Shown piece after piece: positions 3,334 through 53,500 of a stretch of DNA of 55,113 nucleotides. The DNA lies in the NCBI GenBank assembly GCA_937916515.1, contig CALFSX010000139.1, positions 1 through 55,113 of the forward strand. Direction: 5' to 3'. Both the position numbers and the translations under genes were made by a program. A model generated the notes under the pieces. That model saw only the letters and a list, made by a program, of their open reading frames with translations, was not told the origin of the DNA and ran no database searches. This stretch comes from an uncultured Planctomycetaceae bacterium (GTDB taxonomy: Bacteria; Planctomycetota; Planctomycetia; Planctomycetales; Planctomycetaceae). Numbering within the stretch: the first letter of the stretch is position 1; every line of letters begins with the position of its first letter.

Positions 3334-6300
3334 ATGACGAACCTTTTGCAGATCATTACTTCCAGCGATCCAACTATTCGCAATGCGTCGCTGGAAAGCC
3401 GTTGCGCAGGGCTGTCTGCCGAACAACTGCTGGCGGAATGTGTTGCGTTGGACGATTTTCGCAGAACGTGCAGCAACCTGTACGAACGCGTCCGAGCTCT
3501 ATTCTTTCTGTACGCCATCTACCGTTTTCATCTGCCGGAAGCATTATCCGCCAGCGGCCGTGAAACCGGGAAGATTCCGTTTGGCGGCTATGAACAATTG
3601 CTGGCACGGCGTTTTCCGGAAGCGATTGACACATTTCTGGCAGCTCAAACGACGGATGGCCCCACAGTTACTTTGTCCACTGCAATTGCCGAAGCTTATC
3701 ACCGGCTGGCGTTTCAAACTCTGGCAAACCAGGTGCGCCGCAGCGTTCGCACGGTAAAGGGCAATCAGTGGATGTTCCGCACGGGCCACCCAGCTGACGT
3801 TCCGTTAAAGATTCGTGCGGAACTGCTGAAGCAGGACCCTGTTACTCAGTGTTTCCCAAACCTGCGAGAACGCACGGCTGTGCGGATGGACTTCACTCAC
3901 AGCGCGTGGAGCGACATTTTCTTTCTGGGTATGGATTTTCCGGAAGGTGCTCAGGTGATTAACGCCAGCGTGAATCTGGCTGTGCGAGGACGTCACAAAT
4001 CGCCGGAACCACCGATCGATTGCAGCCTGCGAATCATCGACGAGCCGGTGCTGCGTTTGGTTAGCATCGACCTTGACGCCAAAGCCGACATTCATCTGGT
4101 CAACGAAGTGTTCGATTTTGCTCGCGATTACCTGGGGCTGTTAAAAGCTGCTGTCATCGCTTCCGGCATTATTCCTCCCGGCATGGAAGGCTGCGGAGCC
4201 AAAGTGGCCGACGTGTTTTCCAGAATGATCGGACCGGGGCTGGGGTTGGAAGTTGTTAGTCGAGTGAACGACATTCCGAAAGGTTCGCGATTGGCCGTCA
4301 GCACAAACCTGCTGGGTTCGCTGATTTCCATGTGCATGCGAGCGACGGGGCAGGTGTCGCAGTTAACCGGACCGCTGGCAGAAGAAGATCGCCGCATTGT
4401 GGCGGCTCGAGCAATTCTGGGCGAATGGTTGGGCGGTTCCGGAGGCGGTTGGCAGGATTCCGGCGGGATCTGGCCGGGCATTAAGCTGATTAAGGGAGCC
4501 GCTGCCAGTGAAGGCGATCCGGAATTCGGCATCAGTCGCGGCCGTCTTATGCCGCAGCATACCGTATTCAACAGCCAACAAATTACGGCCGCCACAAGGC
4601 AGCGTCTGCAGGATAGCCTGGTGCTGGTTCATGGCGGAATGGCTCAGAACGTCGGGCCGATTCTGGAGATGGTTACTGAGAAGTACCTGCTTCGAAGTGA
4701 AAAGGAATGGGCGGCTCGCAAAGACGCGATCAGCCTGCTGGAAGAAGTTTCAACCGCTCTGCAAAAAGGCGATATTCCAGCGGTTGGACGCGCCACAGGG
4801 CGCAACTTTGCAGAACCGCTGCAGGCGATTATTCCGTGGTGCTCAACGGCGTACACCGAAGAGCTGATTCGTCGCTGCAAAGAACGTTACGCCGACAAGT
4901 TTCATGGGTTCTGGATGCTGGGAGGCATGTCGGGCGGCGGCATGGGCTTCATCTTCGATCCGGCCGTTCGACCGGAAGCTCAGGATTGGCTGCAGCAGAT
5001 GATGCTGGAAGTCAAACGCGAAGCTCAGGATTCGGTGCCGTTTGCCATGGATCCCGTTGTCTACGATTTCGAAATCAACGACGATGGAACTTTTGCCGAA
5101 CTCCGTACAGATGGGGCCATGCCCCTGGGATATCGAGCTCTCGTAATTCCCGATCTGCTGCGGCAGAACATCAGCGAGCTGTCAGCCGCCAAGCGGCGAG
5201 AACTTGAACGAGCGGGCGACGCGTGTCGTGATACCGCCGATCAGTCCGATCTGGCCATGCGTCTCATCAACCGCATTCTTCCCGGAACACTGGCGGCCAC
5301 CGATAAGAGCGAACGACTGGAAACACTGCTTCCGGCCAATGGCTTCGATTCGATCGCTCACGAACAGCTTCGAGAAGACCTGCGTTCCGGAAGACTGGGG
5401 CTTTCGCAAAACCGGCTGTCGTCCACCGTAAGAATCGAAGACGTCACCAGTGACGATGTCATTGACGCCAGAAACAATGTGTCGGCTGCTGTTGTCGCTC
5501 TGGGGCAAAAGGCGATTGCAGAAGGCCGAGTGGGAGTGATCACGCTGGCGGCCGGAGTTGGCAGCCGGTGGACTCAGGGAGCTGGCGTTGTCAAAGCGTT
5601 GAATCCGTTCTGCCGAATGGGCGGCAGCTTCCGTTCGTTTCTGGATATTCACCTCGCAAAAAGCCGCTTAACGGAACAGACGTTTGGGGCCACCCCACCT
5701 CACATCATCACAACCGGCTATATGACCGACGGTCCGATTCGTAAAGCGGTTGAGGCAGCCTATGCTGGTCGCAACGTGCATGTATCGAAAGGAGCTTCCG
5801 TTGGCCTGCGAATGATTCCCACTGTGCGAGACCTGCAGTTTGCGTGGGAAGAGATGCCTCAACAGGTGCTGGACGAACAGCAGGAAAAGATGCGATTCAG
5901 CGTGCGAGCCGCGTTAACTAATTGGGCTCGATCCATGAGTGAGGCGGCGGATTATCGGGACAATCTGCCGTTCCAATGCATGCATCCGGTCGGCCATTGG
6001 TACGAAGTTCCGAATCTGTTGATCAACGGAACTCTGGCAAAACTTTTGCAGCAGCAGCCGCAACTGGAATACCTGATGCTGCACAATGTTGACACATTGG
6101 GAGCCAACTTGGACGCAGGCTGCCTGGGGCTGCACATGCAATCGGGAGCTGATCTTTCTTATGAAGTCATCAGCCGCAGATTGGAAGATCGTGGCGGTGG
6201 GCTGGCACGTGTTAACGGAAAGGCTCGTCTGGTAGAAGGCCTGGCGATGCCGCGCGAAGCAGATGAATTCAAGCTTTCCTACTATAATAGTTTAACGACC

Positions 6301-6642
6301 TGGATTTCCGTGGACCGTTTGTTGGCGATCTTCGGGCTGAGTCGCGAAACCCTTTCCAACGCCAAGCTGATTGAAGAAGCGGTTCGCAATGTTGGAAATC
6401 GCATGCCGACGTACATCACATTGAAGGACGTCAAAAAGCGGTGGGGCCGTGGCCAGGAAGACGTATTCCCGGTCACTCAGTTTGAAAAACTTTGGGGCGA
6501 CATGACAGCTCTGCCGGATGTGAATTGCCAGTTTCTGGTTGTACCCACCTTCCGAGGTCAGCAATTGAAAGATCCGGCTCAACTTGACGGCTGGCTAAGA
6601 GACGGCAGTGCCGCGTACGTGGAGCAGTTACTAAGCTGGTAG
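3334..6642 (+). CDS. GHMP (fucokinase-like) kinase fused to a UDPGP-type pyrophosphorylase
   Basis: A 1102-residue protein. Residues 1 to about 190 are mostly helical and unknown to me. The middle (about 190-590) resembles fucokinase-type GHMP kinases: a degenerate ATP loop PKGSRLAVSTNLLGSL (about 313-330), SGGGWQDSGG (about 367-377), a LVLVHGGMAQN block (about 430) and the Gly-rich GGMSGGGMGF (about 529). The C-terminal part (about 690-1102) resembles eukaryote-like UDPGP pyrophosphorylases: LAAGVGSRW (about 739), PVGHWYEVP in place of PxGHGD, and NVDTLGANLD. The order is opposite to Bacteroides Fkp (pyrophosphorylase, then kinase). It should phosphorylate a sugar and activate it to an NDP-sugar, for envelope or exopolysaccharide glycans; the sugar is unknown. 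Homologues are often labelled simply uridylyltransferase. Confidence 0.75.
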   Translation: MTNLLQIITSSDPTIRNASLESRCAGLSAEQLLAECVALDDFRRTCSNLYERVRALFFLYAIYRFHLPEALSASGRETGKIPFGGYEQLLARRFPEAIDTFLAAQTTDGPTVTLSTAIAEAYHRLAFQTLANQVRRSVRTVKGNQWMFRTGHPADVPLKIRAELLKQDPVTQCFPNLRERTAVRMDFTHSAWSDIFFLGMDFPEGAQVINASVNLAVRGRHKSPEPPIDCSLRIIDEPVLRLVSIDLDAKADIHLVNEVFDFARDYLGLLKAAVIASGIIPPGMEGCGAKVADVFSRMIGPGLGLEVVSRVNDIPKGSRLAVSTNLLGSLISMCMRATGQVSQLTGPLAEEDRRIVAARAILGEWLGGSGGGWQDSGGIWPGIKLIKGAAASEGDPEFGISRGRLMPQHTVFNSQQITAATRQRLQDSLVLVHGGMAQNVGPILEMVTEKYLLRSEKEWAARKDAISLLEEVSTALQKGDIPAVGRATGRNFAEPLQAIIPWCSTAYTEELIRRCKERYADKFHGFWMLGGMSGGGMGFIFDPAVRPEAQDWLQQMMLEVKREAQDSVPFAMDPVVYDFEINDDGTFAELRTDGAMPLGYRALVIPDLLRQNISELSAAKRRELERAGDACRDTADQSDLAMRLINRILPGTLAATDKSERLETLLPANGFDSIAHEQLREDLRSGRLGLSQNRLSSTVRIEDVTSDDVIDARNNVSAAVVALGQKAIAEGRVGVITLAAGVGSRWTQGAGVVKALNPFCRMGGSFRSFLDIHLAKSRLTEQTFGATPPHIITTGYMTDGPIRKAVEAAYAGRNVHVSKGASVGLRMIPTVRDLQFAWEEMPQQVLDEQQEKMRFSVRAALTNWARSMSEAADYRDNLPFQCMHPVGHWYEVPNLLINGTLAKLLQQQPQLEYLMLHNVDTLGANLDAGCLGLHMQSGADLSYEVISRRLEDRGGGLARVNGKARLVEGLAMPREADEFKLSYYNSLTTWISVDRLLAIFGLSRETLSNAKLIEEAVRNVGNRMPTYITLKDVKKRWGRGQEDVFPVTQFEKLWGDMTALPDVNCQFLVVPTFRGQQLKDPAQLDGWLRDGSAAYVEQLLSW

Positions 6643-7125: not shown

Positions 7126-9036
7126 TTACTTGCTTGAACTCACGCCGAACAAGTTGTCGCGGCTCATGTCTTTCTTCAACAGTTCGACACGCCCACGAAA
7201 CTGCTGCTTTTCAGCAGCTTGTTGCAGTCGACGAAGAGCGCCGCTGAAATCCGCTCTGGCTTCTCCATCGGGGCCAGCTTCGCGAACAATGGCGTCTGCC
7301 AGCCAACTGCCGAAGCGGGCCACCAGAGTGTCTTCAGCAGACACAAACGTTTGAGCTGTTCCGGGATTACCCTGTCTGGCACAACGTCCCACAAGTTGGC
7401 GGTCCATGCGGCTGGAAAGCTGGCATTCGGCCACAATCACATGCAGGCCGCCAAGCTTCAACACGTCTTCATCAACGGAAATATCGGTACCTCGGCCTGC
7501 AAGATTTGTTGAAATGGTAACGGCATTTCGTTTTCCGGCAGCGGAGACAATTTTGGCTTCTTCCACTGTCTGCAGACCGTTTAGTAATTGATAGCTGATA
7601 CCTACGTCATCCAGCAGTCTGGCGATGGCTTCGCTGTCGGAGATCGATTGTGTTCCCACCAGAATTGGCTGTCCGGTGCCATGCAGTTGCAGCACCTGCT
7701 GAACAATCGCCGCATGCTTGGCATCCAGTGAGGCAAAGTAACGAGTCGGCAGAATCTGTCGTTGCGAAGGAACTCTCAAAGGAATCTCTGCAACATCGCA
7801 GCGATAGACGTGTTTGAATTCCTGTTCGCAGCCGATTGCTGTTCCTGTCATGCCGCACAGGTTTTGATACAGCCGAAAGAATCTTTGCCGACTGATTTGT
7901 GCCAGTGATTCTTTTTCCGGCGTGACCAACAGCTGTTCGCGAGCTTCGATAGCCTGATGCAGTCCGTCCTGCCAGGAGCGGTCTTCGAAAATGCGTCCGG
8001 TGGTTTCATCCACAATCCGAACTTCGTCTTCTGTGACGACGTAATGCACGTCACGCCGAAAGATGTATTTAGCTCGCAACGCCTGTTCCACGTACGACGT
8101 CCACGGACGCAGCAACACCGATGCGGGCACAGCGATGTCGTTTTGATAGCAGCGATCCATGCCGGCTTCCGTAAGAGCCAGCTGCCCGGTGGAACGTTCG
8201 TGGCGGAAGTCTGTGTCTTCAATCAACACTTCGGCAACGTGCATCGCGGCGACATGAGCGTCCAGGTCGGGAGCGGGGCCGTGCATGCCCATGCTCAGCA
8301 CCAGCGGAGATCCGGCGTCGTCAATCATCACGCTGTCCGCTTCGTCGACGACGGCGTAAATGAGTCCTCGCTGCATCGTCGAACGTTGCCCTGGACCAGG
8401 GCGATGCAGGTCCTGCAGCAGACGCATTCCCAGGCCGGCGGATGCTTCTCGGCGAAGAGTCAGCTGGTCGCGCAGATAGTCGAAGCCGAATTCGTGCCCT
8501 GTTCCGTAGGTGACGTCGCAATCGTAGGCATCGGTTTTGGCTTCGGTTTCGCCCTGTTCAGGCGTGAGGCCGACGGTCATGTTAAGCTGTTGCAAAACGG
8601 GACCAGCTTTTTCGCAGTCGCGTTCTGCAAGATAGGCGTTGGGCGTCATCACATGCACGCCTCGCCCGGCAATTGCCAGATGCGTGGCTGTAGCGATCGC
8701 GACAAACGTTTTGCCTTCGCCGGTCTGCATTTGAGCGATGCGACCCTGAGCCAGATTCAACACCGCCTGCAATTGCACGTCGTAAAGTTGAATCTGGTGT
8801 GCTCGCCGCAGGGCTTCCACAGCCAAAGCGGTGCCAGCCACCAGCAGCTCAGGAGCATATTGCTTTACGCTGCGAGCGAATTCCGTTCTTAGGTTCGCAG
8901 CTTCGGCCTGCAGTTCCGAATCCAGGCAACTGCTTAGCGATTCGGCAAGTTCGCGAATGTGCGAGATCATCACAGCCGACGCGTTTCCCGAACCGGAAAG
9001 ACGTGAGCTTTTCGCTTTGGACGTGTGTTTCAACAC
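7126..9036 (-). CDS. Truncated SecA-like translocase ATPase
   Basis: A 636-residue SecA homologue, against about 850-900 for housekeeping SecA. It has NBD1 with Walker A MQTGEGKT (103-110) and Walker B VVDEADSVMIDD (229-240), the GTGHEFGFDYLRD block (178-190), a compact preprotein-crosslinking region, GRIFEDRSWQDGLHQAIEA and NBD2 with ISTNLAGRGTDI and a DRQLVGRCARQG finger. It ends soon after NBD2, so most of the helical scaffold and wing and the C-terminal zinc linker are missing. The EARTPL motif of SecA reads DAGSPL. It begins at GTG 9036, 26 bases after the TolC-like gene, so they form one unit. Expected role: ATP-driven export of special substrates; this is inferred. Confidence 0.85.
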   Translation of the reverse strand: MLKHTSKAKSSRLSGSGNASAVMISHIRELAESLSSCLDSELQAEAANLRTEFARSVKQYAPELLVAGTALAVEALRRAHQIQLYDVQLQAVLNLAQGRIAQMQTGEGKTFVAIATATHLAIAGRGVHVMTPNAYLAERDCEKAGPVLQQLNMTVGLTPEQGETEAKTDAYDCDVTYGTGHEFGFDYLRDQLTLRREASAGLGMRLLQDLHRPGPGQRSTMQRGLIYAVVDEADSVMIDDAGSPLVLSMGMHGPAPDLDAHVAAMHVAEVLIEDTDFRHERSTGQLALTEAGMDRCYQNDIAVPASVLLRPWTSYVEQALRAKYIFRRDVHYVVTEDEVRIVDETTGRIFEDRSWQDGLHQAIEAREQLLVTPEKESLAQISRQRFFRLYQNLCGMTGTAIGCEQEFKHVYRCDVAEIPLRVPSQRQILPTRYFASLDAKHAAIVQQVLQLHGTGQPILVGTQSISDSEAIARLLDDVGISYQLLNGLQTVEEAKIVSAAGKRNAVTISTNLAGRGTDISVDEDVLKLGGLHVIVAECQLSSRMDRQLVGRCARQGNPGTAQTFVSAEDTLVARFGSWLADAIVREAGPDGEARADFSGALRRLQQAAEKQQFRGRVELLKKDMSRDNLFGVSSSK

Positions 9037-9062
9037 GGGGATGTCCGCCTTTCGTCAGCAGA

Positions 9063-12000
9063 CTATTGCCGCATCGGCCGGTTGGAAGTATCGGGTAGTC
9101 GATCCCACGTGGTAGGAAACATGGGCATCGGTCGCGTAGTTCCCTGAATTTCCGACGGCCTCGGAGCAAGGGCAGCCCCCACTTCTGACTGGCTGTTTGA
9201 GCCACCGAAATTCAAGTCCAGTTGGTTTCCTGCGGAAACAGTTTGAAACTTGTTGCCCGACATTGGCTTTGAACCGGTTGGCGGCGAACTGGCCGAAGCG
9301 AACTGACTGTTGACCGTTGATTCCAGGCGTCCCTGCATCCAATCCATATGAGAATCGTCGACCTGAGGTCGATCGTTGCGAGACTTCAGCAGGATGCCCA
9401 GTTCCTTTTTCAACTTCACCAGTGCCACGGCATGATCCACCTGAGCCTGCACAAAGGCAGATTCTTCGTCAGCCATGCGTTCAAACGAATCCAGTAAGTC
9501 TTCCAGCAGTAGAATGGCCGAATCTTCTGATGCAGGCAACACTTCAAAACGGTCCTGCAGATAATTGGACTCGTTTTCCGCTGCCTTCATCGATTCGTAG
9601 CGACTGGAGATTTCTGAATACGCCGTACGAACTTCACGGCTGGCGATTTCAACATCCGTCAGCGATTTCTCAACGGTCGCTCTGAAGATGTTGATTGACC
9701 GTTTCAGTTCCCACTGACGCTGTTCAACCTTGGCAACAGCTGCCCGGTTTCCTATGGGAATTTCGAATTCCAAACCAACGGTGTAGCCTGGACGATTGTC
9801 TCCAAGTTCGCCCCGGATGGCTCGTTGAATTTTTGAATTACCGGCCAGGTCGGCCACGTAGGTTTCGACAAGGAAGTCCAGGCGAGGCAGCAGTTCGTTG
9901 CGGCTCACACCCAGGCGAACTCCGGCAGCACGCATCTTGCGAATGGCTTCAGAAATATCGGGACGGTTGATTAACGCGGTTTGCAGTACGCTTTGCAGAT
10001 CTGCACTTTCTGTGACCATGCCCGGAACTTCCATAGGCATCAGTTCAATCGCACCGCCGTTCAGCATGTCGGGAGAATTCACCAACAGGCGAAGCTGCGC
10101 TTCCGCATCTTTGACTCGAGCGTACGTTCGGCGTGTTCGAGTGTCCGCACGAGCAACCGCAGCACGTGCTCGCAGTACCTGACGAGGAATCGTGTCAACC
10201 TGACTTCGTCCTTCAAGGCGAGCCAGCACTGCATTGGCCGACGTCAACAACTTTTGACGTTGAAAAAATTCAGCTCTGGCCCGGAACAACGTCCAGTACG
10301 ATTCAGTGACTTCAATCAAATGAGTTTGCAGAGCGTCAACAACTTCGTCTTCTGCTGCGTTGGCCTGAATTCTGGCCAATACGATTTCGCTTTCGTTGTA
10401 AGTTCGACCGGCACCATCCATTAACGGCTGGCGGTAGCTAAGTTCCAGACGAGCGGAACCCTGGTTGTTCGGCACGAAGAATCGTGAATTCTGATTTTCG
10501 TGGCCGATGTCCTGAGCGATCCGCGTTTCGCCGCCGTAAATGTTCTTGGAACGCAGTCCGCCGCTGGCAGACACCTTGCGAGTCAGCAGTCGATCCTGTC
10601 CATTTCCAGTCGTCAAATCGTTACCGACGGGATCGTTCAGGTCATCGTATGTTGCCTCAAGAAAAGTGCTCCAGTCGAACTTCGCTTCTTCCTGAGTGAT
10701 CACTCGATACTGAACTTCTGGTTCTGTCTGAATGGCTGTCACCTGCGGAGAATACAGCATGGCGTCCTGCAGCAATGTGCGGACGTCTACCTGAACCCTG
10801 GCGGCTGTTTGGCTAACAGGGCTTTTTACGGCAGATTCCCACCACGGACCGAATCCTGCAGGAACCGACATCCGTTGAACTCCTCCCGCAAAATCGCTCG
10901 CGGCTACTGCTCGGCTGGTATAAGGGGCCATCCATGTACCAGCGTCAGCTTCAACGGTTGCTCGAAACCCGGACGTTCCCGGATAGCTGTTGAAAACCGA
11001 ATGACCAAAGTTGGGCGGCTGCACAGTGGTTGTTCCATTCGGCTGCCCCATTATCTGATTGCTATAGCCTGATGAATACCCGTCCGCCTTTGCATGAGGC
11101 GAATTGTTTAGCGGCATCGCTTCGATCGATGGAATTTCGTTGCCGTAAACTTGAGGGTATTGCTGCCCACCTTGTGGGTAGGACAAAGCTTCGTTAGTTG
11201 TTGGTGCCTGCTGATGCCCCGAATCGTATTGCGGTAGCGGCAACGCAGTTGAAGGAATTGGAACGGGGATCATTGGAACTGCCTGGCGGGGCATGGCTCC
11301 CGCAGGTGGTCCAAACTGAGTCCGTGGTGTTTGAACTGACTGAGTCGTCGCGGGGTACTCCGAAGCAGGCATTGAATAATTGCCCGCACTGTAGGGCTGC
11401 CCGTTCATGATCGGTGGCGCAGGGACCGGCAGGCCTTGCATGTGAGGCACAGTCGATTGTTGCTGAGCGTTTGCAAAATTCTGAGCCAGTAGCGGTCCGT
11501 CAGGCTGGCGAGCAGCGGGTTCAGGTACGGCAATCGCAGCGGCTGCACCAGTCGACACGTTCGTACCAGTCGCGATCGAATTGTTCGTCTGCTTCTGAGC
11601 GACCATCTGCGTTGGGATACTGCCGACGGCAGGGATGCTGAGCGCCGGAGCAGCCGGTTCGGGATTGGCCGCAACAGCGGATTCATCAATCACAACACCA
11701 TTTCCAACCAGCAATGTTCTGGCGGAACTTACCGGCGTAACAACTGCCGCCGGCATCTGTGACCCCAATCGCGATTGAATCTGAATTGCCGCCGATGGAC
11801 CGGTGACAGGCTTTGAAGTGTCAATCAGCTGGAAACCGGCATTGCGGTGGTTTGGATTGATCGCACCGTTCTGCTGTACATTTAGCGGAGTCGCGTAAGC
11901 ACTATGTTGTTGCGGTGCCTGAGACAAAAATTGATTAACGCGGGCTTCAGGCGCGTAGCTGCCAGTTGCCGTGTTTGAGGCTTGAACAAAACTGGGAGTG

Positions 12001-12200
12001 CCCAATGTGACCGTTGCGCGGGACGCACCCGGCTGTTCGCCCGCCGTCAAGTCGCGAGCCGTAAAGAACTCACAACAAACGGCGGAAACGACAACGACAG
12101 ACAATGCAGCGCCAACTCGACCTGCGTTGGAAAACGCGAGGCGGTTTCTCAGCAATCGAGGTGTTGACGGCTGGTTGTGTTTTTCAGACTGCTTACTCAT
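9063..12200 (-). CDS. TolC-like outer-membrane protein with long Pro/Gln-rich N-terminal region
   Basis: A 1045-residue protein starting at ATG 12200, chosen because AAGG lies just upstream; an extension to 12263 is possible but less likely. Residues about 20-45 form one hydrophobic segment (a signal or anchor) after a basic N-terminus. Residues about 50-460 are low-complexity, rich in Pro, Gln, Asn and Ser. From about 470 (VDVRTLLQDAMLYSPQV) to about 960 it follows the TolC pattern: two coiled-coil halves, with LSYRQPLMDGAGR, NRPDISEAI and GLEFEIPIGNRAA. A Ser/Pro-rich tail follows. Usual TolC proteins have about 450-500 residues. It sits directly upstream of the SecA-like gene. No HlyD or ABC partner is in the window. 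Confidence 0.85.
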   Translation of the reverse strand: MSKQSEKHNQPSTPRLLRNRLAFSNAGRVGAALSVVVVSAVCCEFFTARDLTAGEQPGASRATVTLGTPSFVQASNTATGSYAPEARVNQFLSQAPQQHSAYATPLNVQQNGAINPNHRNAGFQLIDTSKPVTGPSAAIQIQSRLGSQMPAAVVTPVSSARTLLVGNGVVIDESAVAANPEPAAPALSIPAVGSIPTQMVAQKQTNNSIATGTNVSTGAAAAIAVPEPAARQPDGPLLAQNFANAQQQSTVPHMQGLPVPAPPIMNGQPYSAGNYSMPASEYPATTQSVQTPRTQFGPPAGAMPRQAVPMIPVPIPSTALPLPQYDSGHQQAPTTNEALSYPQGGQQYPQVYGNEIPSIEAMPLNNSPHAKADGYSSGYSNQIMGQPNGTTTVQPPNFGHSVFNSYPGTSGFRATVEADAGTWMAPYTSRAVAASDFAGGVQRMSVPAGFGPWWESAVKSPVSQTAARVQVDVRTLLQDAMLYSPQVTAIQTEPEVQYRVITQEEAKFDWSTFLEATYDDLNDPVGNDLTTGNGQDRLLTRKVSASGGLRSKNIYGGETRIAQDIGHENQNSRFFVPNNQGSARLELSYRQPLMDGAGRTYNESEIVLARIQANAAEDEVVDALQTHLIEVTESYWTLFRARAEFFQRQKLLTSANAVLARLEGRSQVDTIPRQVLRARAAVARADTRTRRTYARVKDAEAQLRLLVNSPDMLNGGAIELMPMEVPGMVTESADLQSVLQTALINRPDISEAIRKMRAAGVRLGVSRNELLPRLDFLVETYVADLAGNSKIQRAIRGELGDNRPGYTVGLEFEIPIGNRAAVAKVEQRQWELKRSINIFRATVEKSLTDVEIASREVRTAYSEISSRYESMKAAENESNYLQDRFEVLPASEDSAILLLEDLLDSFERMADEESAFVQAQVDHAVALVKLKKELGILLKSRNDRPQVDDSHMDWMQGRLESTVNSQFASASSPPTGSKPMSGNKFQTVSAGNQLDLNFGGSNSQSEVGAALAPRPSEIQGTTRPMPMFPTTWDRLPDTSNRPMRQ

Positions 12201-12609
12201 GTGACCTTGTGAGCCAAAGTTGGTTTTGCTCTTCCAGACTCTCTCAGTTCGGAAAATCGGCACAAGCCATACATCCGGAACACCAAAACCGGCGCCGTAC
12301 AGACGTTACAAGGCGAATTAGACGGACTGTTTGCGCCGCCTACCCAAACTAACATCGCTTTTGCGTTTGCTGGGTGCTTTCCCGGACGGACAACAGCAAG
12401 GGGCCGCTGGCGAGTAGCGGGGCCGGCCGATTGAAAGGAAGTTCAAGCCTGTCAAAACAATCTTCGCAGCTGAACTGAATCGCCCATCACTCCCTGACAC
12501 TATCAAGTTGCCAGAACTGCCCAGTCCAGTCTGGTCTGGTTGCGTGAGGCCGTTGCAATACCCGCCATCTGCGCGGCTTGTTGCGGCTAGATTTTAGCCA
12601 GCCAAAGTT
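12201..12609. other. Intergenic region upstream of the tolC/secA-like unit
   Basis: No reading frame here looks coding on either strand. The stretch must hold the promoter of the minus-strand TolC/SecA-like unit, but I cannot identify it with confidence. Confidence 0.4.
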
Positions 12610-28701: not shown

Positions 28702-29151
28702 ATGTTTTTGCGGATACTTGTTTGTGTTTTGCCCGTTATTTTGTGCCTGACGGGGTGCGACCGCACGGCAAAGTTGACCAGACTTAAATCCGGCGTCACG
28801 TTTGAAGTGCATTCAATTTTGGCAACCGCCAGTGCGAACACGATCAGCATGCCGGCCCCCGACACGGGTGAAGAAGTGTTTCTGTTTGTGAACCCTTTGG
28901 TTACTGCGGCAGACGTGGTGTTTGCAACTGCCACCACAGACGAATTCGATTTGGTGGCATTGAATGTGATTGTCAACAAGGCAGCCGGAGCCACCTTGGC
29001 AGCAGCAACTGCAACTCCTGGATCCAGGCTGGGTGTAGTGGTTAACGGTAAGCTGATATTTGTTTCTCCTGTCGTTACTGCCACAATCTCCAATTCGTTT
29101 GCAATTTCCGGATCGTTCAACATTGAGGACTGGAATGCGATACTGGAATAG
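28702..29151 (+). CDS. Lipoprotein resembling the SecD P1 head domain
   Basis: A 149-residue lipoprotein: hydrophobic residues 2-15, lipobox LTGC with acylated C19. The C-terminal half (RLGVVVNGKLIFVSPVV, then ATISNSFAISGSFNIEDW) resembles the part of the SecD periplasmic P1 domain that reads 'ixLDGkVisAPvIxxxIsxGxaqIsG'. No membrane channel part is present. Thus it is a stand-alone SecD-P1-like domain tethered to a membrane. ATG 28702 has a GGAG ribosome site. The next gene, 66 bases on, encodes a small membrane protein and may be co-transcribed. A role in export is only a resemblance-based guess. Confidence 0.7.
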   Translation: MFLRILVCVLPVILCLTGCDRTAKLTRLKSGVTFEVHSILATASANTISMPAPDTGEEVFLFVNPLVTAADVVFATATTDEFDLVALNVIVNKAAGATLAAATATPGSRLGVVVNGKLIFVSPVVTATISNSFAISGSFNIEDWNAILE

Positions 29152-29217
29152 GGCATGTTAATTGGTGGCAGTGTGTTGATATCAAGGTCGGTCAGGCGTG
29201 AATGAAGGGATCCTTGA

Positions 29218-29496
29218 ATGAGCGGCAAGACGGTGCTTTTGCGTTGGCAGCGGCGAGGTTTGATTGCGGCGGTATTATGCGTGATATCAATGTTGTTTGC
29301 GTTGCCGCTGGTGGTGCTGTTGGGCGGAGGCATTGCGGCCGCCGTGAGTGGGTTTCTGTTCTTAAGCCTGTTCGCTTTTATTCAGGTTCCATTGTTGTTG
29401 TTACTTCGTTTTAACAAGCAGTTTGGCGCCACAACGTGGGGGCTGCCGACACGGGCAGTTTCGGAAAGTACTGTAGTTGCCGCGGCGAAGAACTAA
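29218..29496 (+). CDS. Small membrane protein, unknown
   Basis: A 92-residue protein with a basic N-terminus (LLRWQRR) and two hydrophobic segments (about 13-38 and 42-62), so both ends are probably cytoplasmic. AAGGGA lies about 15 bases before the ATG. I recognise no family. It follows the SecD-P1-like lipoprotein gene in the same direction. Confidence 0.6.
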   Translation: MSGKTVLLRWQRRGLIAAVLCVISMLFALPLVVLLGGGIAAAVSGFLFLSLFAFIQVPLLLLLRFNKQFGATTWGLPTRAVSESTVVAAAKN

Positions 29497-29989
29497 CGTC
29501 ACAGACCAGTACGCAGCGCAGGCAAGCAGATCTATTCAACAACCGGATTCGTGGCCCCTAGTAAGACGCTCTATTGAATGGGGATCTTCAGCACAATCCC
29601 CCACGGCTGATTTCACGCTCAATTCCCTCGCATTTTGCTCTTCAGAGACTGTCACAGTCTTCGTCAGGGCCTTCCTGACCGGATTTCCGCTCCCGTATTG
29701 CCGAAAACAGGCGGTTGGTCGGCGAAGCCTTTTGAGGAAACGGGCTGAGCTGAGTACACTAATCGCTGACGAATTTTGGCAATCGCCGTCACAACTGGCG
29801 GTCACGGCATCGTTTCGGCGGCATTATTCGCAATAAACAATAAACCAGATCAGGCGTTCGCTTCGAGTAATTTCAGCGGCCGCCGGGAAATGTGACACTG
29901 CGGCGTAATCACGCGGCGATGTCGCTAAAAAAGAATCCGGCCAAAACCGGCCAGGTTGGCTGTCTTAACAAATTTAGAACTATCCACGT
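29497..29989. other. Intergenic region upstream of rimO
   Basis: About 490 bases. Two open frames of 89 and 119 codons lie on opposite strands over each other and lack any family traits. No clear repeat was seen apart from small hairpins such as CCGGCCAAAACCGGCC near 29938-29953. Confidence 0.4.
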
Positions 29990-31408
29990 ATGTCGCTGCC
30001 AATTATTGAACCCGATGCACCTGTGCCAATGATGTCCGTTCCGGAAGTGACGGGCCCCAGCAAGGGCAGTTACGCTTTCGTGAGCCTGGGATGTCCGAAA
30101 AATCTGGTCGACAGCGAACGCATGCTGGGTAGTCTGGCCATTGACGGTTATTCCCTGGTGACGGACCCTGCCAATTCCGACTTTGTGATCGTGAACACCT
30201 GCGGCTTTATCGAAAGCAGTCGGCAGGAATCCAAAGCCGTCATTCAGGAAATGTTAGACCTGAAACGTCAGGGCAAGACCAAGGGAGTTATTGTCGCCGG
30301 CTGCCTGCCTCAGCGTTTGGAAGAAGGCGGGCTGATTAATGAGATGCCTGAAATCGACCACGTTGTAGGCGTCTTCGGTCGCGACGAAATCACCAAAGTT
30401 GCCGATCGACTTGTCGGCGGAATGAATGAACAGCGCGAGTTGTTTCGTCCGGCCCCAATTAAGGCCATGGACGACCGAGCCCGCCTGCGAATCACGCCCG
30501 CCCACTATGCTTACCTGAAGATTTCAGAAGGCTGCGATCGTACGTGTACGTTTTGTTCGATCCCCATGATGCGTGGTAAACACATTACCAAGCCGATCGA
30601 AATGGTGGTTGAAGAAGCTCGCGAACTAGCGGCTGACGGTGTTCGAGAGCTGATTCTGGTGGCTCAGGATACAACCTATTACGGCATGGATCTGTATGGC
30701 GAAGTGCGGCTGGTCGAGCTGCTGAAAGAACTGGACAAGGTGGACGGCATTGACTGGATTCGCCTGATGTATCTGTACCCGGTTCACTTTACCGATGCAT
30801 TGATTGATCAGATTGTGGCGTCGCCCAGGATTATCCCTTACCTGGATATGCCGCTGCAGCACATCAATTCCGCCGTGCTGAAACGTATGCAGCGTCGAGT
30901 TAATTCTGAGGCAACACGGGAACTGGTCACGAAGCTGCGAGAACGTGTTCCGAACCTTGTACTGCGAACGACCTTCATCGCCGGCTTTCCGGGGGAGACT
31001 CAGGAACAGTTTGAAGAGTTGCGTGACTTTATCAAAGAGACTCGTTTCGAACGGATGGGCGTGTTCACATATTCCGTAGAACCGGGAACTCCCGCGATCA
31101 AGCTGGATGGCCATCTGGATGAAGCTGTGAAGGATGCTCGCCGAGACGAACTGATGGAATTGCAGCAGCAGATCGCCTTCGAACACGCTGATTCGCTGAT
31201 CGGATACGAACTGGACGTCATCATCGACGAAGAAGTGGAAGAAGGCGTCTACATCGGACGATCTTTCGCGGATGCTCCGGAGATCGATTCCAACGTGTTT
31301 GTTTCCGGTGAGAACCTTGAAATCGGCAGCATGGTGCCAGTTGAGATCGTTCGTCGCGAAGATTACGATCTGATCGGTGTGGCCATCACGGAAGACGTCA
31401 TTGAATAA
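29990..31408 (+). CDS. rimO: Ribosomal protein S12 methylthiotransferase RimO
   Basis: A 472-residue radical-SAM enzyme that methylthiolates the conserved aspartate of ribosomal protein S12. The N-terminal iron-sulfur cysteines lie in SLGCPKNLVDSE, NTCGFI and VAGCLPQR. The radical-SAM CxxxCxxC is CDRTCTFC (about 181-188). The order of blocks (NTCGFIESSRQES) and the start SLGCPKN point to RimO rather than MiaB. A C-terminal TRAM domain (about 405-470) is present. It is followed 10 bases later by a perfect palindrome. Confidence 0.95.
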   Translation: MSLPIIEPDAPVPMMSVPEVTGPSKGSYAFVSLGCPKNLVDSERMLGSLAIDGYSLVTDPANSDFVIVNTCGFIESSRQESKAVIQEMLDLKRQGKTKGVIVAGCLPQRLEEGGLINEMPEIDHVVGVFGRDEITKVADRLVGGMNEQRELFRPAPIKAMDDRARLRITPAHYAYLKISEGCDRTCTFCSIPMMRGKHITKPIEMVVEEARELAADGVRELILVAQDTTYYGMDLYGEVRLVELLKELDKVDGIDWIRLMYLYPVHFTDALIDQIVASPRIIPYLDMPLQHINSAVLKRMQRRVNSEATRELVTKLRERVPNLVLRTTFIAGFPGETQEQFEELRDFIKETRFERMGVFTYSVEPGTPAIKLDGHLDEAVKDARRDELMELQQQIAFEHADSLIGYELDVIIDEEVEEGVYIGRSFADAPEIDSNVFVSGENLEIGSMVPVEIVRREDYDLIGVAITEDVIE

Positions 31409-47501: not shown

Positions 47502-50500
47502 CTAAATACGTTTCAAGCCAGTTCCCTGACGAGCGTTATAGCGGAAGAACAGTTCACCTTCTGAATACAACGCGGTGGTTGAAAACAGTTCAGCGGTTTC
47601 GTACAGCTGATAGCTGGTTTGGTCACCTCGTTCTGTTCGCACAATGGTGCCGCTGCTGTCAACCTTGTCAAGTGCCCCACCACCCTGCAAACCGTAGTCA
47701 TAGTTTTCTTTGTAGAAGTCGCCGTTTCTGGCATCCGTGTCGCCGTCAACTGTCTGGCCCCACAACCCGTGCGGAGCGACCAGGTCGCTGAACGGGTTGA
47801 TAACCTTGATGCGGACTGAAAACAGACCATCCTGTTTAATAAACTGCAACTGATATTCGCTTGTGATTAACGTGGTGGTATCTCCGTCAATAGAAACTGT
47901 TCCGCCATCAATAGCGGTTGAGCTTCCAGCCGTTAGCGCGATGCCGTTAAGCGTTGCTCCTGAAAAATTCAGGTGCACCTTATCGAGCCCCACGGTTACT
48001 CCCAGTTCTCCAATTACGGTTCCATCGCTGGCGATGTCATTCCAGTGAACGAATTTAGCATTCACCTGAAGTCCGCTGTCGCTTAAAAGATTGTAGATGT
48101 GGCCCGCTTCGCCCTGAACATCGAACAGACCTCCATCGTCACCTCGGAAATGCGGGTCGCCCCAAATCAAACCATCCTGACCATTGTTGTTGTAGGTCGT
48201 GTCGTAGTTCACTTCTGCCAAAACAAGTTTCACCTGAGCTGACTGAGTGACCGATCCCGCCACAACAAGCGAATAGCTGAACGTATCCTGCCCGCTGAAG
48301 CCGTCGTTGGCCAGATAGCAGAAGGTTCCATCGTTGTTTAGTTCCAGAGTGCCATTGGTTGGCCCGCTAACCAGCACCACTTTGACGTCCTGCCCATCAA
48401 CAATGTCGTTCAGAGTGACATTGCCTTTAATTGCTGCACCGGCATCACCTGTGTAGCCGTCGTCCACCGGAACTGCAGGAGCGTCCTGAACGGTGATCTT
48501 CACATTGGCTGTCGTCACGTTGCCGTTACCGTCGGACGATTCATAGACGAACGAATCAGTTCCCGTGAAGTTAATGGCAGGTGTGTAGACAAATGAACCG
48601 TCAGAATACAGAGTGACCGTGCCACCTTCGGACGTGCGCACATCCGTCATTTCGGCGGTGCTTAAGGTATCACCGTCTGGATCGAAGTCGTTGTCCAGCA
48701 CGTTGCCGGTGACGATGCTGTTATTGTCGGCAACATAGTCGTCATCGGTGGCACTGATGGTATTTGGAGCGGAATCGACGGTAATTGTCACGACAGCCGT
48801 GTCTGTGCCGCCGTTGCCATCATCAATCTGGTAGGTGAATGTGTCCTGCCCGCTGAAGCCAGCGTCGGGAGTGTACACGTACTGTCCAGATGGATTGACT
48901 GTGACATTGCCATTGCTGGCTTCTTCAATCAGGCTAACCGTCAACTGATCGTTATTGGGATCGGAATCGTTGGGCAGCACGTTTCCGGAAACGCTTGTTT
49001 CGTATGCTGTTGAATTTGAATCGTCAACCGCGTCTGGATTGTCGTTTGCTGCTGCTGGTGGTTCCGGCGGTGGGCAGACTTCAATCGTGACGGTGGCGGT
49101 GTTGGTGCCCCCCTTGCCGTCGCTGATGGAATAGGTAAATGTATCCGTTCCGCTAAAGCCATCATTCGGGGTGTATGTGTAACGTCCACCAGCGGTTACG
49201 GTGACTGTGCCGTTTTCAGGGTTGGTGAAACCGGTTACCGCTAAAGCATCGCCGTCGGGATCTTCGTCGTTACACAGCACCTTACCAGTAACAGTTGTGT
49301 TGAAGTCTGTTTTCGCAGAATCACCTACCGCATCGGGGTTTTCGTTAGCAGAAACAGCGGGTTCAACATTGATGATCACCAGTGCCGTATCCGAGCCTCC
49401 TTTGCCATCGCTGACTTCATAGGTGAAGGTATCCGTGCCGCTGAAGCCTTGATATGGCGTGTAAGTGTAGCTGCCGTCTGTGTTGAATTGCAGACTGCCA
49501 TTGGCTGGTCCCTGATCAACTGAAAACGTCAGGCTGTCGCCGTCTGCGTCTGAATCGTTACCAGCCACGCTTCCGGAAACGGCTACGTTTTCGTTGGTGG
49601 CGTTGGAATCATCCTGAGCATCCGGGCCACTGTTGGGTGCCGGGCAGACTTCGATCTCAACTTCAGCCGTATCCGTGCCTCCGTTGCCATCGCTGACTTC
49701 GTAGGTGAAGGTGTCCGTACCGCTGAAGCCTTGATATGGCGTGTAAGTGTAGCTGCCGTCTGTGTTAAACTCCAGACTGCCATTGGCTGGTCCCTGATCA
49801 ACTGAAAACGTCAGGCTGTCGCCGTCTGCGTCTGAATCGTTACCAGCCACGCTTCCGGAAACGGCTACGTTTTCGTTGGTGGCGTTGGAATCATCCTGAG
49901 CATCCGGGCCACTGTTGGGTGCCGGGCAGACTTCGATCACAACTTCAGCCGTGTCCGTGCCTCCGTTGCCGTCGCTGACTTCGTAGGTGAAGGTGTCCGT
50001 ACCGCTGAAACCTTGATCCGGTGTGTAAGTGTAGCTGCCGTCTTCGTTCAGGGAAACAGTGCCGTTAGCGGGTTCGTTCAGCAGCGTTGTTGTCAATGTG
50101 TTTCCGTCTGGATCGATATCATTGTCCAGAACCTGGCCGCTGACTGACGTTTCGTAATCTGTTGTTGCGACGTCATTGACTGCGTCAGGGGCCTGATTTT
50201 CAGGAACCGGTTCTGCCTCAACGGGGCACATTGGGGCACCAGGTTCTGGTTCAGGCTGCGGGTCAACGATAAGCTCTGGTTCAACAAGGATAGAGACCGT
50301 CGCAATCGCCGTACCGCCGTTTCCGTCATCAACCTGATAGCTGAAGCTGTCTTCTCCTGCAAATCCGTCGTTAGGAGTGTACACATAGCTGCCGTCTGCC
50401 TCCAAAGTGACAAGGCCGTTGGCAGCGTTCTGTGACAGCGTGAATGTTAAGAAGTCACCATCGGGATCCGAATCATTTCCGGCAACGGAACCAAACGCAG

Positions 50501-53500
50501 GCGAATTATAGGCAGTGACGTTAGTGTCGTTTTCTGCGATTGGAACGTCGTTTGGATCAACGGGACACTCTGGCTCTGGTTGAGGTTCTGGCTCTGGAGC
50601 GATAAACAGGACAACCTCTTCTGCAACTTGATCTTTGGTGTCAAACCAACCCTGGGCGCTAAACGACCATGAATCCAGATATCCATCGTCGCCGTAAGTC
50701 GTGTTGACATTGGTCATCGGATGCAACCACATTCCCAGCGATTTATTAAACGAGACTCCCGTCCAATCTTCACCATCGCTGTGCTGCACGATTGACGTGG
50801 CATTCATGTTGAAGCTGAAGACGTGATTGCCGTTTTCATCATAGGAGGCTTCAATCGAGGTAAACGGACTGTCTGCCGACAACGACGAAACCAGAGCTTC
50901 GTCCTGATAGGATGAGAAGTCGTTTTGGCCGTTGTAGTTGTAAGCCGTTACAACAGGCTGGCTGCCCGAGTTGTCAAAATAGAACAAAGCCATCTCATCG
51001 CCGTGCCCCTTTGGATTCGGCCCATCGTTGATTGCCAAAGTGAATCCATTTGTGCGACCGTTGCCAACCGCGTCCGCAATAACGACTCGAAACGAAAAGG
51101 CGTTAGTCGTTGAGTTGTACGATGTTGAAACCTGCTGAATGTCGCCACCGGCATCGCTGCCTTCGGGCGTCACAACATTGTAGTTATAGATGTATTCGGT
51201 GCCATCCGCAGTTGATTCAGCAGAGGTTGGCTCAACAGGTTCGTTCTCGTCACCGCCGTTGTCTTCGCTTGCTGATCCATCTGCGATCTCGTCGCTGATT
51301 TCGCCCGGTTCTTCTGACGCATCGACAACTTCAGTTTCGTCGTTTTTGCCGGATTCTTCTGAACTGCCTTCGGAAACTTCTGATTCGCCAACGCTGCCGT
51401 CTGTTTCGTCTGAGGAAGCTGCTTCGTCGCCGACGTACTGCACGTTGCTGCCTTCAGCTTCGCCAGCACCGTTAGCAGTCGCTCCGTCATCTTCTCCGTC
51501 AAACCAGACGCTTTCCGTTAGAACTTCTTCGCCATCGCCGCTGTTGGCTGAGCCGTCGTTGTTTTCGGGGCTTGGTTCAACATCAACAGTGTGTGTGCCT
51601 GTGGAGTTCTCTGCTGCATCGTCTGTGCCTGTGGAATCATCAACGGCAGGAGTCTCGCATTCTATTGGTTCCGGTTGAACTTCCGCAGCTGGATCGAGGT
51701 ATGGAACTGGCTCTTCAACCAACACAGGAGGCTCGGGGCTTACCGGATATCCGCCAAACACATTCAGTTGCAGTACCACATCGTCGAAATCTCTGTCGCC
51801 CAGCCCCGGCAGGTCTTCTATGCTGATGCTGTAACCGGAATCAGTGGGTTCAATCTGGAAGTGATCCAGACCGCCGGGATTTCGGCTGGCATCGCTGACA
51901 TAGACCGGGCCATTTAAAGTTGTGGTCTGTCCATTCGGTTGAACGGCTGTCAGTTTCAGAACTCCATCGTTGTCAGGCTGGAGTTGCAGCGAACTGCCTT
52001 CGATAGCACTCAGGTTGTTCAGCTGATTGCCGTTGGCCAGAATAAAGAAGCCTATTGGATTGCCCTGGCCTCCTGAGAAGGACACGGAATCGCCCGATAC
52101 CAAAGATCCGCCCGATCCCTGTGCCGATGCGTTACCAAACAGAATTCGAACATCGGAGATTTCACCGGTCGATGGATCAATCTCGTAGATGCCAACGGTG
52201 TTCTGGTATCCAGCTCCTTCACTGATAAAGCTTATTGTCGTCCCCACGTCTGCCGGAAGGTACAAGGCTCCAAGGTCAGTCGGGCCTTCCGGGACAACCG
52301 GCGGTTCGACAACTGGTGGTTCGACAACCGGCGGTTCCGTTGGATAGAAGACGTCTGGTTCAATATTCAGAGTCAGAACCACATCATCAAAGTCGTGGTC
52401 ACCAAGTGCTGGCAGATCTTCAATATTGATACTGTAACCGGTTCCGTTTGGCTCAATTCGAAAGTGATCCAGTCCAGCGGGATTTCTCTCAGCTTCGCTT
52501 GTGTAAACCGGTCCGTTCAGAGTGCTGGAGTTGCCGTCGGCGTCCGTTGCAACAAGATGCAGATTCCCATCTTCCCCCTGCTGCAATGCCAGCGAGCTGT
52601 CTTCGCTCGACTGGATGTCGTTCAAAGAGTTACCGTTGGCCAGAATGAAGAAGCCGATCGGCTGCACTTGACCGCCGGAAAACGAAACGGTTTCGCCACC
52701 CAGAAGGCTGCCGCCGGATCCAACTTCAGATGCATTCGCAAACAGAATCCTAACGTCTGAAATGGCTCCGGTGGCTGGGTCAACAGAGTACATTCCGATT
52801 GTGTTTTGATAGCCGGCGCCTTCGCTGACAAAGGAGACCGAAGTTGACACGTCAGCCGGAAGGATAAACGTGCCAGTGTCGCCGTTCGGGTAGACAGGAG
52901 GCAACGGTTCGGTCGGCAATAAGCCACCATCTTCAATGAGAACCGGGCCATCGTTGATGACTTCAAATTCGGTCGTCTCAGATTCATCCACGACACTGTT
53001 GTCGATCAGGTCGACATCGCCAGTCAAAGCCTCGTCAGTTTCGCCGGCGTCCTGAGTTGTGGCCCATGGCGGATCTGCCGAAACCCAGACCTGTTCACCC
53101 GCGTTCTGCGACGATTCCACTGTTGTTTCATCCGTCTGGCCGGAATCTTCAATTTCCGCAACCACGGTCTCTGGATCTTCTGCACAGCCAGACAGCAGGT
53201 TGGCAAGGTCGAACTTGCCATCAAAGAATTCCAGGTGCGTAATGTCGCTCAGGAAGTCCACGCAGCCTCGGCCCGCTACTGCAAAGATCCCGAATCCCTG
53301 ATCTTCAACCGTGTATTCTGAACGCTGTCCGTCAAAGCAGGAAGTTCGTTGCTGCTCTCGATCGTTCGACTTCCCTTTTAGAAGCCCCAAAGTCCAATCG
53401 GCACCACGATAGCTGTCTGCTTTACCATCAGAATCACAGTTGTTATCGCGGAGACCGTCTCCACGACCGCTGCTGTGATCGTCTCCATCGCAATTGGCCC

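Follow-up and report, generated by a model that had tools for sequence, protein, structure and literature searches.

A short SecA-like ATPase is encoded directly after a TolC-family outer-membrane protein in a 55-kb stretch of DNA from an uncultured Planctomycetaceae bacterium (contig CALFSX010000139.1; 55,113 nucleotides in all, hereafter the window). On balance, the window probably carries one half, TolC-SecA, of an export module of type-I-like design that the short SecA would drive, with the other half on contigs C201 and C338 of the same genome (genomes, contigs and loci are given below as G, C and L numbers). That other half would consist of a small HlyD protein, a GAF-HlyD-type protein, and a fusion of RRE-like, M50 and HlyD parts (M50-HlyD), referred to here as the trio. 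Our reading is based on the domain content of the proteins, the intact motor and HExxH motifs, a conserved module, its split into two loci, and the agreement between trees; from these we infer the transport steps and the joint working of the two halves. Stripped SecA proteins paired with HlyD and TolC parts have been in print since 2015 (Kamneva et al., 2015; PMC4452313), and the basic association of SecA, HlyD, M50 and TolC is already known from that work. New here is that, in several genera, the TolC-SecA pair appears to be separate from the trio, and that the SecA and M50-HlyD trees agree. The locus is a split-locus variant of the known module, its function being predicted from sequence.

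The TolC-SecA gene pair

The pair and its parts are located in the window as follows.

9063..12263, minus strand: gene for a TolC-family outer-membrane protein with a long N-terminal extension (open reading frame (ORF) of 1066 aa, GTG start)
10983..12065, minus strand: low-complexity, Ala/Pro/Gln/Ser/Thr-rich extension of TolC, residues 67-427 (from composition and alignment)
10911..10982, minus strand: conserved stretch beginning PGTSGFRAT ahead of the TolC core, residues 428-451 (from alignment)
9037..9062, minus strand: tolC-secA intergenic gap of 26 bases, with a purine-rich, ribosome-binding-like stretch before the secA GTG (by eye)
7126..9036, minus strand: gene for the short SecA-like ATPase (ORF of 636 aa, GTG start; from family matches, alignment and model)

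A preliminary description of this DNA had a short SecA encoded 26 bases after a TolC-like gene, and both ORFs are found in place on the same strand. The span it gave for the locus, 7126-12200, ends 63 bases short of the start of the TolC ORF. An open frame of 311 codons antisense to the SecA gene (7957-8892, plus strand) is most likely a shadow frame.

The short SecA is a motor without wing or two-helix finger

In a family search, the window SecA matched PF07517 (273.6 bits) as well as PF21090 and PF01043. Its domains are NBD1, the preprotein cross-linking domain, and NBD2, and no scaffold/wing family was matched at E ≤ 0.001. The motor motifs are intact, with GEGKT at position 106, VDEAD at 230, AGRGTDI at 513 and GRCARQG at 550. 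When aligned with the 1186-aa SecA of the same genome, the chain ends early in the scaffold helix, and the last element of its AlphaFold model (35 sequences, mean pLDDT 84.1) is one long helix at residues 598-630. There is no room in the chain for the wing, the two-helix finger or the C-terminal zinc linker. Compared with a canonical SecA, the protein retains the motor with its Walker motifs and the preprotein cross-linking domain, and is missing the scaffold, wing, two-helix finger and zinc linker. Family matches, alignment and model thus bear out the earlier claim that most of the scaffold, the wing and the zinc linker are gone.

Four SecA_DEAD proteins were matched in the genome, on C224 (open frame of 1186 aa), C87 (659 aa), C58 (689 aa) and, as the window SecA, in the window itself (642 aa). 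The window protein is therefore not the sole, housekeeping SecA, since the 1186-residue protein and two further short SecAs are also encoded. Another short type, the third, stands alone; proteins of this type (642-649 aa) are encoded at L026 (C87 of the same genome), L045, L046 and L079 and form their own clade in the genus; no TolC or HlyD was found near these four loci.

The pair is conserved and resembles a known module

Forty loci picked from a longer match list were examined together with the window, and their ORFs were called and clustered. A SecA-family gene, in one case the housekeeping one, is found in 38 of these loci; 12 of the 38 have a co-oriented TolC gene no more than 200 bases away, and HlyD-family genes share the stretch in 17. 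The fullest cassettes (e.g., L035, L036, L040) encode TolC, SecA, a small HlyD (about 300 aa), a GAF-HlyD-type protein (about 620-690 aa) and M50-HlyD (about 720-780 aa), in that order. The name GAF-HlyD reflects family resemblance and the 2015 paper, because a GAF domain was matched in L145 and not in L025, L036, L040 or L066. No ABC transporter was seen among the module proteins examined. In a wider contig scan for relatives, at least 80 loci were matched, and none of those listed exceeded 41% identity. One of them, L145 in a metagenome-assembled genome of the Gammaproteobacteria, comprises GAF-HlyD, M50-HlyD, SecA and HlyD, with no TolC seen.

TolC adjoins SecA on the same strand in 16 of the 19 loci with a window-type SecA, which span several genera and have mostly differing other neighbours. 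The exceptions are L080, where TolC is absent from the contig, L089 and L094. The adjacency is hence conserved rather than unique to this genome, and the extra HlyD and M50 partners that had been guessed at do exist, both in related genomes and in the window's own.

Kamneva, Poudel and Ward described secondary SecA_DEAD proteins in which the scaffold and wing are wholly or largely missing, with HlyD, M50-HlyD, GAF-HlyD and sometimes OEP proteins as partners (Kamneva et al., 2015; PMC4452313). These authors suggested that SecA supplies the ATPase that an ABC transporter would otherwise provide, and remarked that partners are encoded elsewhere in some genomes. The window SecA fits their module in being a SecA_DEAD protein without scaffold or wing and additional to a housekeeping SecA. 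The trio is not in its neighbourhood, and a matched one is instead found at C201/C338. In our trees of 39 and 50 rows, which held no sequences from the 2015 paper itself, the window SecA falls inside the linked and unlinked module SecAs with a support of 100. The present locus differs from the module, as set out in the main text of that paper, in that window-type TolC-SecA and the trio lie apart in several genera and their trees agree. The M50 partner differs too, resembling a daptide peptidase and in some cases matching PqqD, a name that does not occur in that main text. No later study of the module's function was found in the open-access papers searched, which leave out most subscription journals and bioRxiv.

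Pair and trio at separate loci

No trio genes are present among the ORFs called in the window, nor beside its orthologues L028-L033. More widely, 18 of the 19 window-type SecA loci are without the trio, several of the contigs being too short to exclude a linked one; L095 alone has it on the same stretch. A matched M50-HlyD is found elsewhere in the genome for 14 of these 18, and in 15 of the 19 window-type genomes counting all. Conversely, the trio occurs without SecA or TolC at L066 and L067 (C201 and C338 of the window's genome), L065, L069 and L070, while L068, L071 and L072 have broken or incomplete copies. L066 and L067, both on contigs shorter than 6 kb, are identical over 5663 bases, which points either to recent duplication or to a duplicate made in assembly. 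In G004, the only closed genome of the genus (one contig, 8.92 Mb), the pair is at 0.76 Mb and M50-HlyD at 2.65 Mb, 1.88 Mb apart. Loci of two more genera, g48 and g72, have the same split appearance. An apparent loss of GAF-HlyD in G004, G151 and G147 was ruled out, as the genes are open and had been dropped by the ORF caller for overlap.

A quick SecA tree (50 rows) groups all 19 window-type rows together (support 94), with L095 sister to the other 18 (99). A similarly quick M50-HlyD tree of 42 rows places L095 as sister to the 16 separate-trio rows (92; 99 for the set with L095). In both trees, the linked L034 and L035 branch beside the window-type set. Given the agreement of the SecA and M50-HlyD trees and the sister position of L095, the simplest explanation is that an ancestral cassette split once. 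The added trees strengthen the case for the split, though not that for a joint function of the two halves. Excluded from the trees or counts were L039, which is at the site of L080; L067, whose sequence equals that of L066 (M50-HlyD tree); and fragments below 250 aa or weak matches (parts of L071, L072 and L088). The SecA spans of L085 and L092 were read directly and contain no stops.

Across 170 genomes of the family, 24 have both the SecA and M50-HlyD, five have the SecA only, six have M50-HlyD only, and 135 have neither. The wider cut-offs used for this count (SecA, E ≤ 1e-155; M50-HlyD, E up to 1.3e-144) were chosen after seeing the tables. The Fisher p-value for co-occurrence is about 6e-19, a figure made far too strong by shared ancestry. 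Genomes with the SecA only are G012, G143, G156, G159 and G018, the last having a linked but divergent M50-HlyD. Those with M50-HlyD only are G007, G024, G088, G140, G142 and G158, and part of such a SecA is present in G007, G088 and G140. Both genes are absent from G006. Both halves are damaged in G007. Its SecA locus is on a contig with no TolC, and SecA itself has lost the front half and has a stop in what remains; of the trio, M50-HlyD is interrupted by a stop and a frame change, the small HlyD by three stops, and GAF-HlyD is open.

The TolC protein and its extension

The window TolC has an OEP match at residues 756-955 and in a second stretch (64.8 bits; Pfam cut-off, 22), which identifies it as a TolC-type outer-membrane efflux protein. 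It scores 47.1 bits with the type I secretion TolC model TIGR01844, below the cut-off of 225.15. Residues 67-427 are 12.7% Pro and 10.0% Gln, and the two together reach a fraction of up to 0.32 in two 50-residue blocks. A 400-residue Pro/Gln-rich region had been described here; a long stretch rich in both residues is indeed present, but its composition is really Ala/Pro/Gln/Ser/Thr-rich. The extension is expected to be periplasmic, because the hydrophobic segment ahead of it (about residues 50-66, peaking from residue 50) resembles a signal peptide.

We aligned 17 of the 27 TolCs listed, 12 from loci without the trio and five from linked cassettes. The part before the WW motif has 239-558 residues in the 12, as against 74-350 in the five. 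Among the 12 (window aside), identity to the window protein is 17-22% in the extension versus 51-70% in the core; for L028-L032, it is 19-22% and 66-70%, respectively. The PGTSGFRAT stretch is found in all 12 TolCs from loci without the trio and in none of the five from linked cassettes, a distribution that tracks phylogeny as well as linkage. The extension is probably a fast-varying, disordered periplasmic tail, which may span the periplasm or dock partners. The idea that it replaces an adaptor is not sustained, given that it is poorly conserved and is short in some relatives, and that HlyD-type proteins exist in the genomes; on the 17-22% identity across relatives, we reject it in this role. 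Two short motifs were seen by eye: in the extension of the window protein and of L028-L032, a GHS-type motif precedes the conserved stretch, and L028, L030, L086-L088, L090 and L091 carry a GHSF/GHTF-like motif close to the TolC C-terminus.

The M50-HlyD membrane partner

All 36 aligned M50-HlyD proteins match NF041824, the model for the daptide intramembrane metalloprotease (daptide_HExxH; E ≤ 0.01, best 3e-56), and 35 of them match the YydH/LiaK family. Six of the 36 match PqqD at E ≤ 1 (best 0.0011), and one further M50-HlyD protein contains a PqqD match above the curated cut-off: G040:C95:28828-29022 (24.3 bits; cut-off, 23.4) lies in frame inside an M50-HlyD match at 28744-30882. L066 covers positions 18-368 of the 379 in the daptide model. 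In the HExxH motif, H210 and E211 are invariant across the 36 sequences, and H214 is present in 90% or more. The M50-HlyD proteins resemble the daptide leader peptidase MpaP and the YydH/LiaK epipeptide proteases as described in PMC10036551 in having an intramembrane HExxH protease and, possibly, an RRE-like part. Unlike those, they are fused to an HlyD adaptor, score below the family cut-off, and have no precursor identified nearby. These likenesses hint at leader recognition and cleavage by M50-HlyD, which we regard as a fair hypothesis. A model of the L145 M50-HlyD made from one sequence reached a pLDDT of 42.8.

Conserved small ORFs near the pair or trio were considered as precursors and set aside, as those listed occur in just two or three genomes and resemble normal flanking genes or shadow frames. 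FG-GAP/UnbV_ASPIC proteins are encoded within a few genes of cassettes L040, L041 and L051. These, together with the FG-GAP/UnbV, cadherin and DUF11 proteins near L040, L041, L051, L037, L054 and L038, were weighed as possible substrates, and we do not claim them as such.

Proposed mechanism and alternative explanations

Type I secretion employs HlyB, HlyD and TolC. The module considered here resembles it in having TolC and HlyD-type adaptors, and differs in having a SecA-type ATPase in place of the ABC transporter. In the mechanism we propose, the PqqD/RRE-like part of M50-HlyD would bind the leader of a substrate. The short SecA, with motor and polypeptide clamp and no wing or two-helix finger, would then feed the chain through an inner-membrane pore, for which the M50-HlyD assembly and SecYEG are both candidates. 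The leader would be removed in the membrane by the M50 site, and the HlyD proteins would bridge to TolC and hence to the exterior. A bolder version is a Sec-independent trans-envelope exporter, in which a SecA reduced to clamp and motor would push leader-bearing peptides through an RRE-gated fusion of intramembrane protease and HlyD adaptor and out via TolC; we consider this rather unlikely. If true, ribosomal-peptide-style leader recognition and cleavage would be built into a SecA/TolC machine. The RRE-peptidase-like membrane partner offers a concrete route to the substrate, namely a search for leader-bearing precursors, and the split loci open the way to two-locus genetics in Planctomycetes. 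SecA-driven export tied to an outer-membrane tunnel, as first suggested for this locus, is in keeping with the conserved pair, the extra SecA and the partners. The accompanying suggestion that TolC works with SecA instead of an HlyD adaptor is not borne out, since related SecAs adjoin HlyD-type proteins and the genus has the trio at a second locus.

A number of observations weigh against two halves that make one exporter. Window-type SecA is found without a matched M50-HlyD or GAF-HlyD in G143, G156 and G159 (98-100% complete) and in G012 (86%), and L073, from G012, falls outside the trio set in the M50-HlyD tree. The first three form one subclade (support 95) and are nearly complete, and so perhaps reflect a single genuine loss, of the trio but not of SecA. 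(At their loci L094, L092 and L091, respectively, a trypsin-transglutaminase-TPR protein is encoded close to SecA.) M50-HlyD occurs without a window-type SecA in G158 (89% complete) and G142 (61%), and in G001 TolC and SecA are kept while the frames of the small HlyD and GAF-HlyD are broken. Cassettes of TolC, small HlyD, GAF-HlyD and M50-HlyD with no SecA in the stretch exist at L075, L078 (G004), L083 and L084 (the window's genome), which implies that SecA is not always part of the module and that the trio can do without a dedicated one. Tree agreement and strong co-occurrence are also possible without joint function, because of shared descent in the same genomes. A GAF domain was outright matched only in the gammaproteobacterial copy L145; L025, L036, L040 and L066 matched the HlyD part alone. 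With NF041824, L066 scores 172.5 bits, one of seven scores seen in full that range from 158.8 to 191.2, all below the cut-off of 300. Of the 36 M50-HlyD proteins, 30 have no PqqD match, and a PqqD scan of 20 genomes gave two places in all, the one in G040 and one in G003 that is not known to be M50-HlyD. No substrate was found when 851 ORFs of 18-150 aa from 25 loci were compared for a conserved small precursor close to the pair or the trio.

SecA is generally considered to depend on SecYEG. The short SecA could be an accessory SecA2-like motor on SecYEG that loads the periplasm, with TolC exporting those substrates or others next. Like the accessory SecA2 proteins (C. difficile 6sxh; mycobacterial and Listeria models), it is a second SecA beside a housekeeping one and has the same motor fold, with the motor and preprotein cross-linking domain intact. 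Among the 50 PDB rows listed, the highest TM-score for its model is with SecY-bound SecA (6itc; TMq 0.84), the best PDB sequence matches are to C. difficile SecA2 (6sxh), and the pair itself encodes no pore-forming protein. The window SecA nevertheless ends in the first scaffold helix, and its scores with four NCBIfam SecA2 models, 370-501 bits, are far below their cut-offs of 725-1100. It lacks the two-helix finger and also the wing, which is implicated in SecYEG contact (Kamneva et al., 2015; PMC4452313), and the clustering of its relatives with HlyD and M50 genes points to a trans-envelope complex. We therefore consider a SecA2-like role a serious but improbable alternative.

The separation of the loci also invites the view that TolC-SecA is an independent two-gene system in need of no trio, perhaps acting via the TolC extension or other adaptors. 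The pair is kept without a matched trio in G012, G156 and G159, G143 keeps SecA without the trio and without an adjacent TolC, and the PGTSGFRAT stretch separates unlinked from linked TolCs. Such independence sits poorly with the matched M50-HlyD in most window-type genomes and with the unconserved extension, and PGTSGFRAT follows phylogeny as well as linkage; it seems to us distinctly unlikely. That the two genes are functionally unrelated neighbours, with SecA not in export at all, would be in line with TolC not being found beside SecA in G066 and G143. This view is weakened by the recurrent same-strand adjacency in several genera with mostly differing other neighbours, and by published neighbourhood evidence (Kamneva et al., 2015; PMC4452313), and we give it very little credence.

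Other genes in the window

The window also encodes a protein of 2067 residues (47502-53705, minus strand) with many bacterial Ig/cadherin-like repeats and a DUF4114 domain, which is likely a giant surface protein. A protein of 1102 residues (3334-6642, plus strand) has a UDP-sugar pyrophosphorylase match and also resembles part of a bifunctional fucokinase/guanylyltransferase model.

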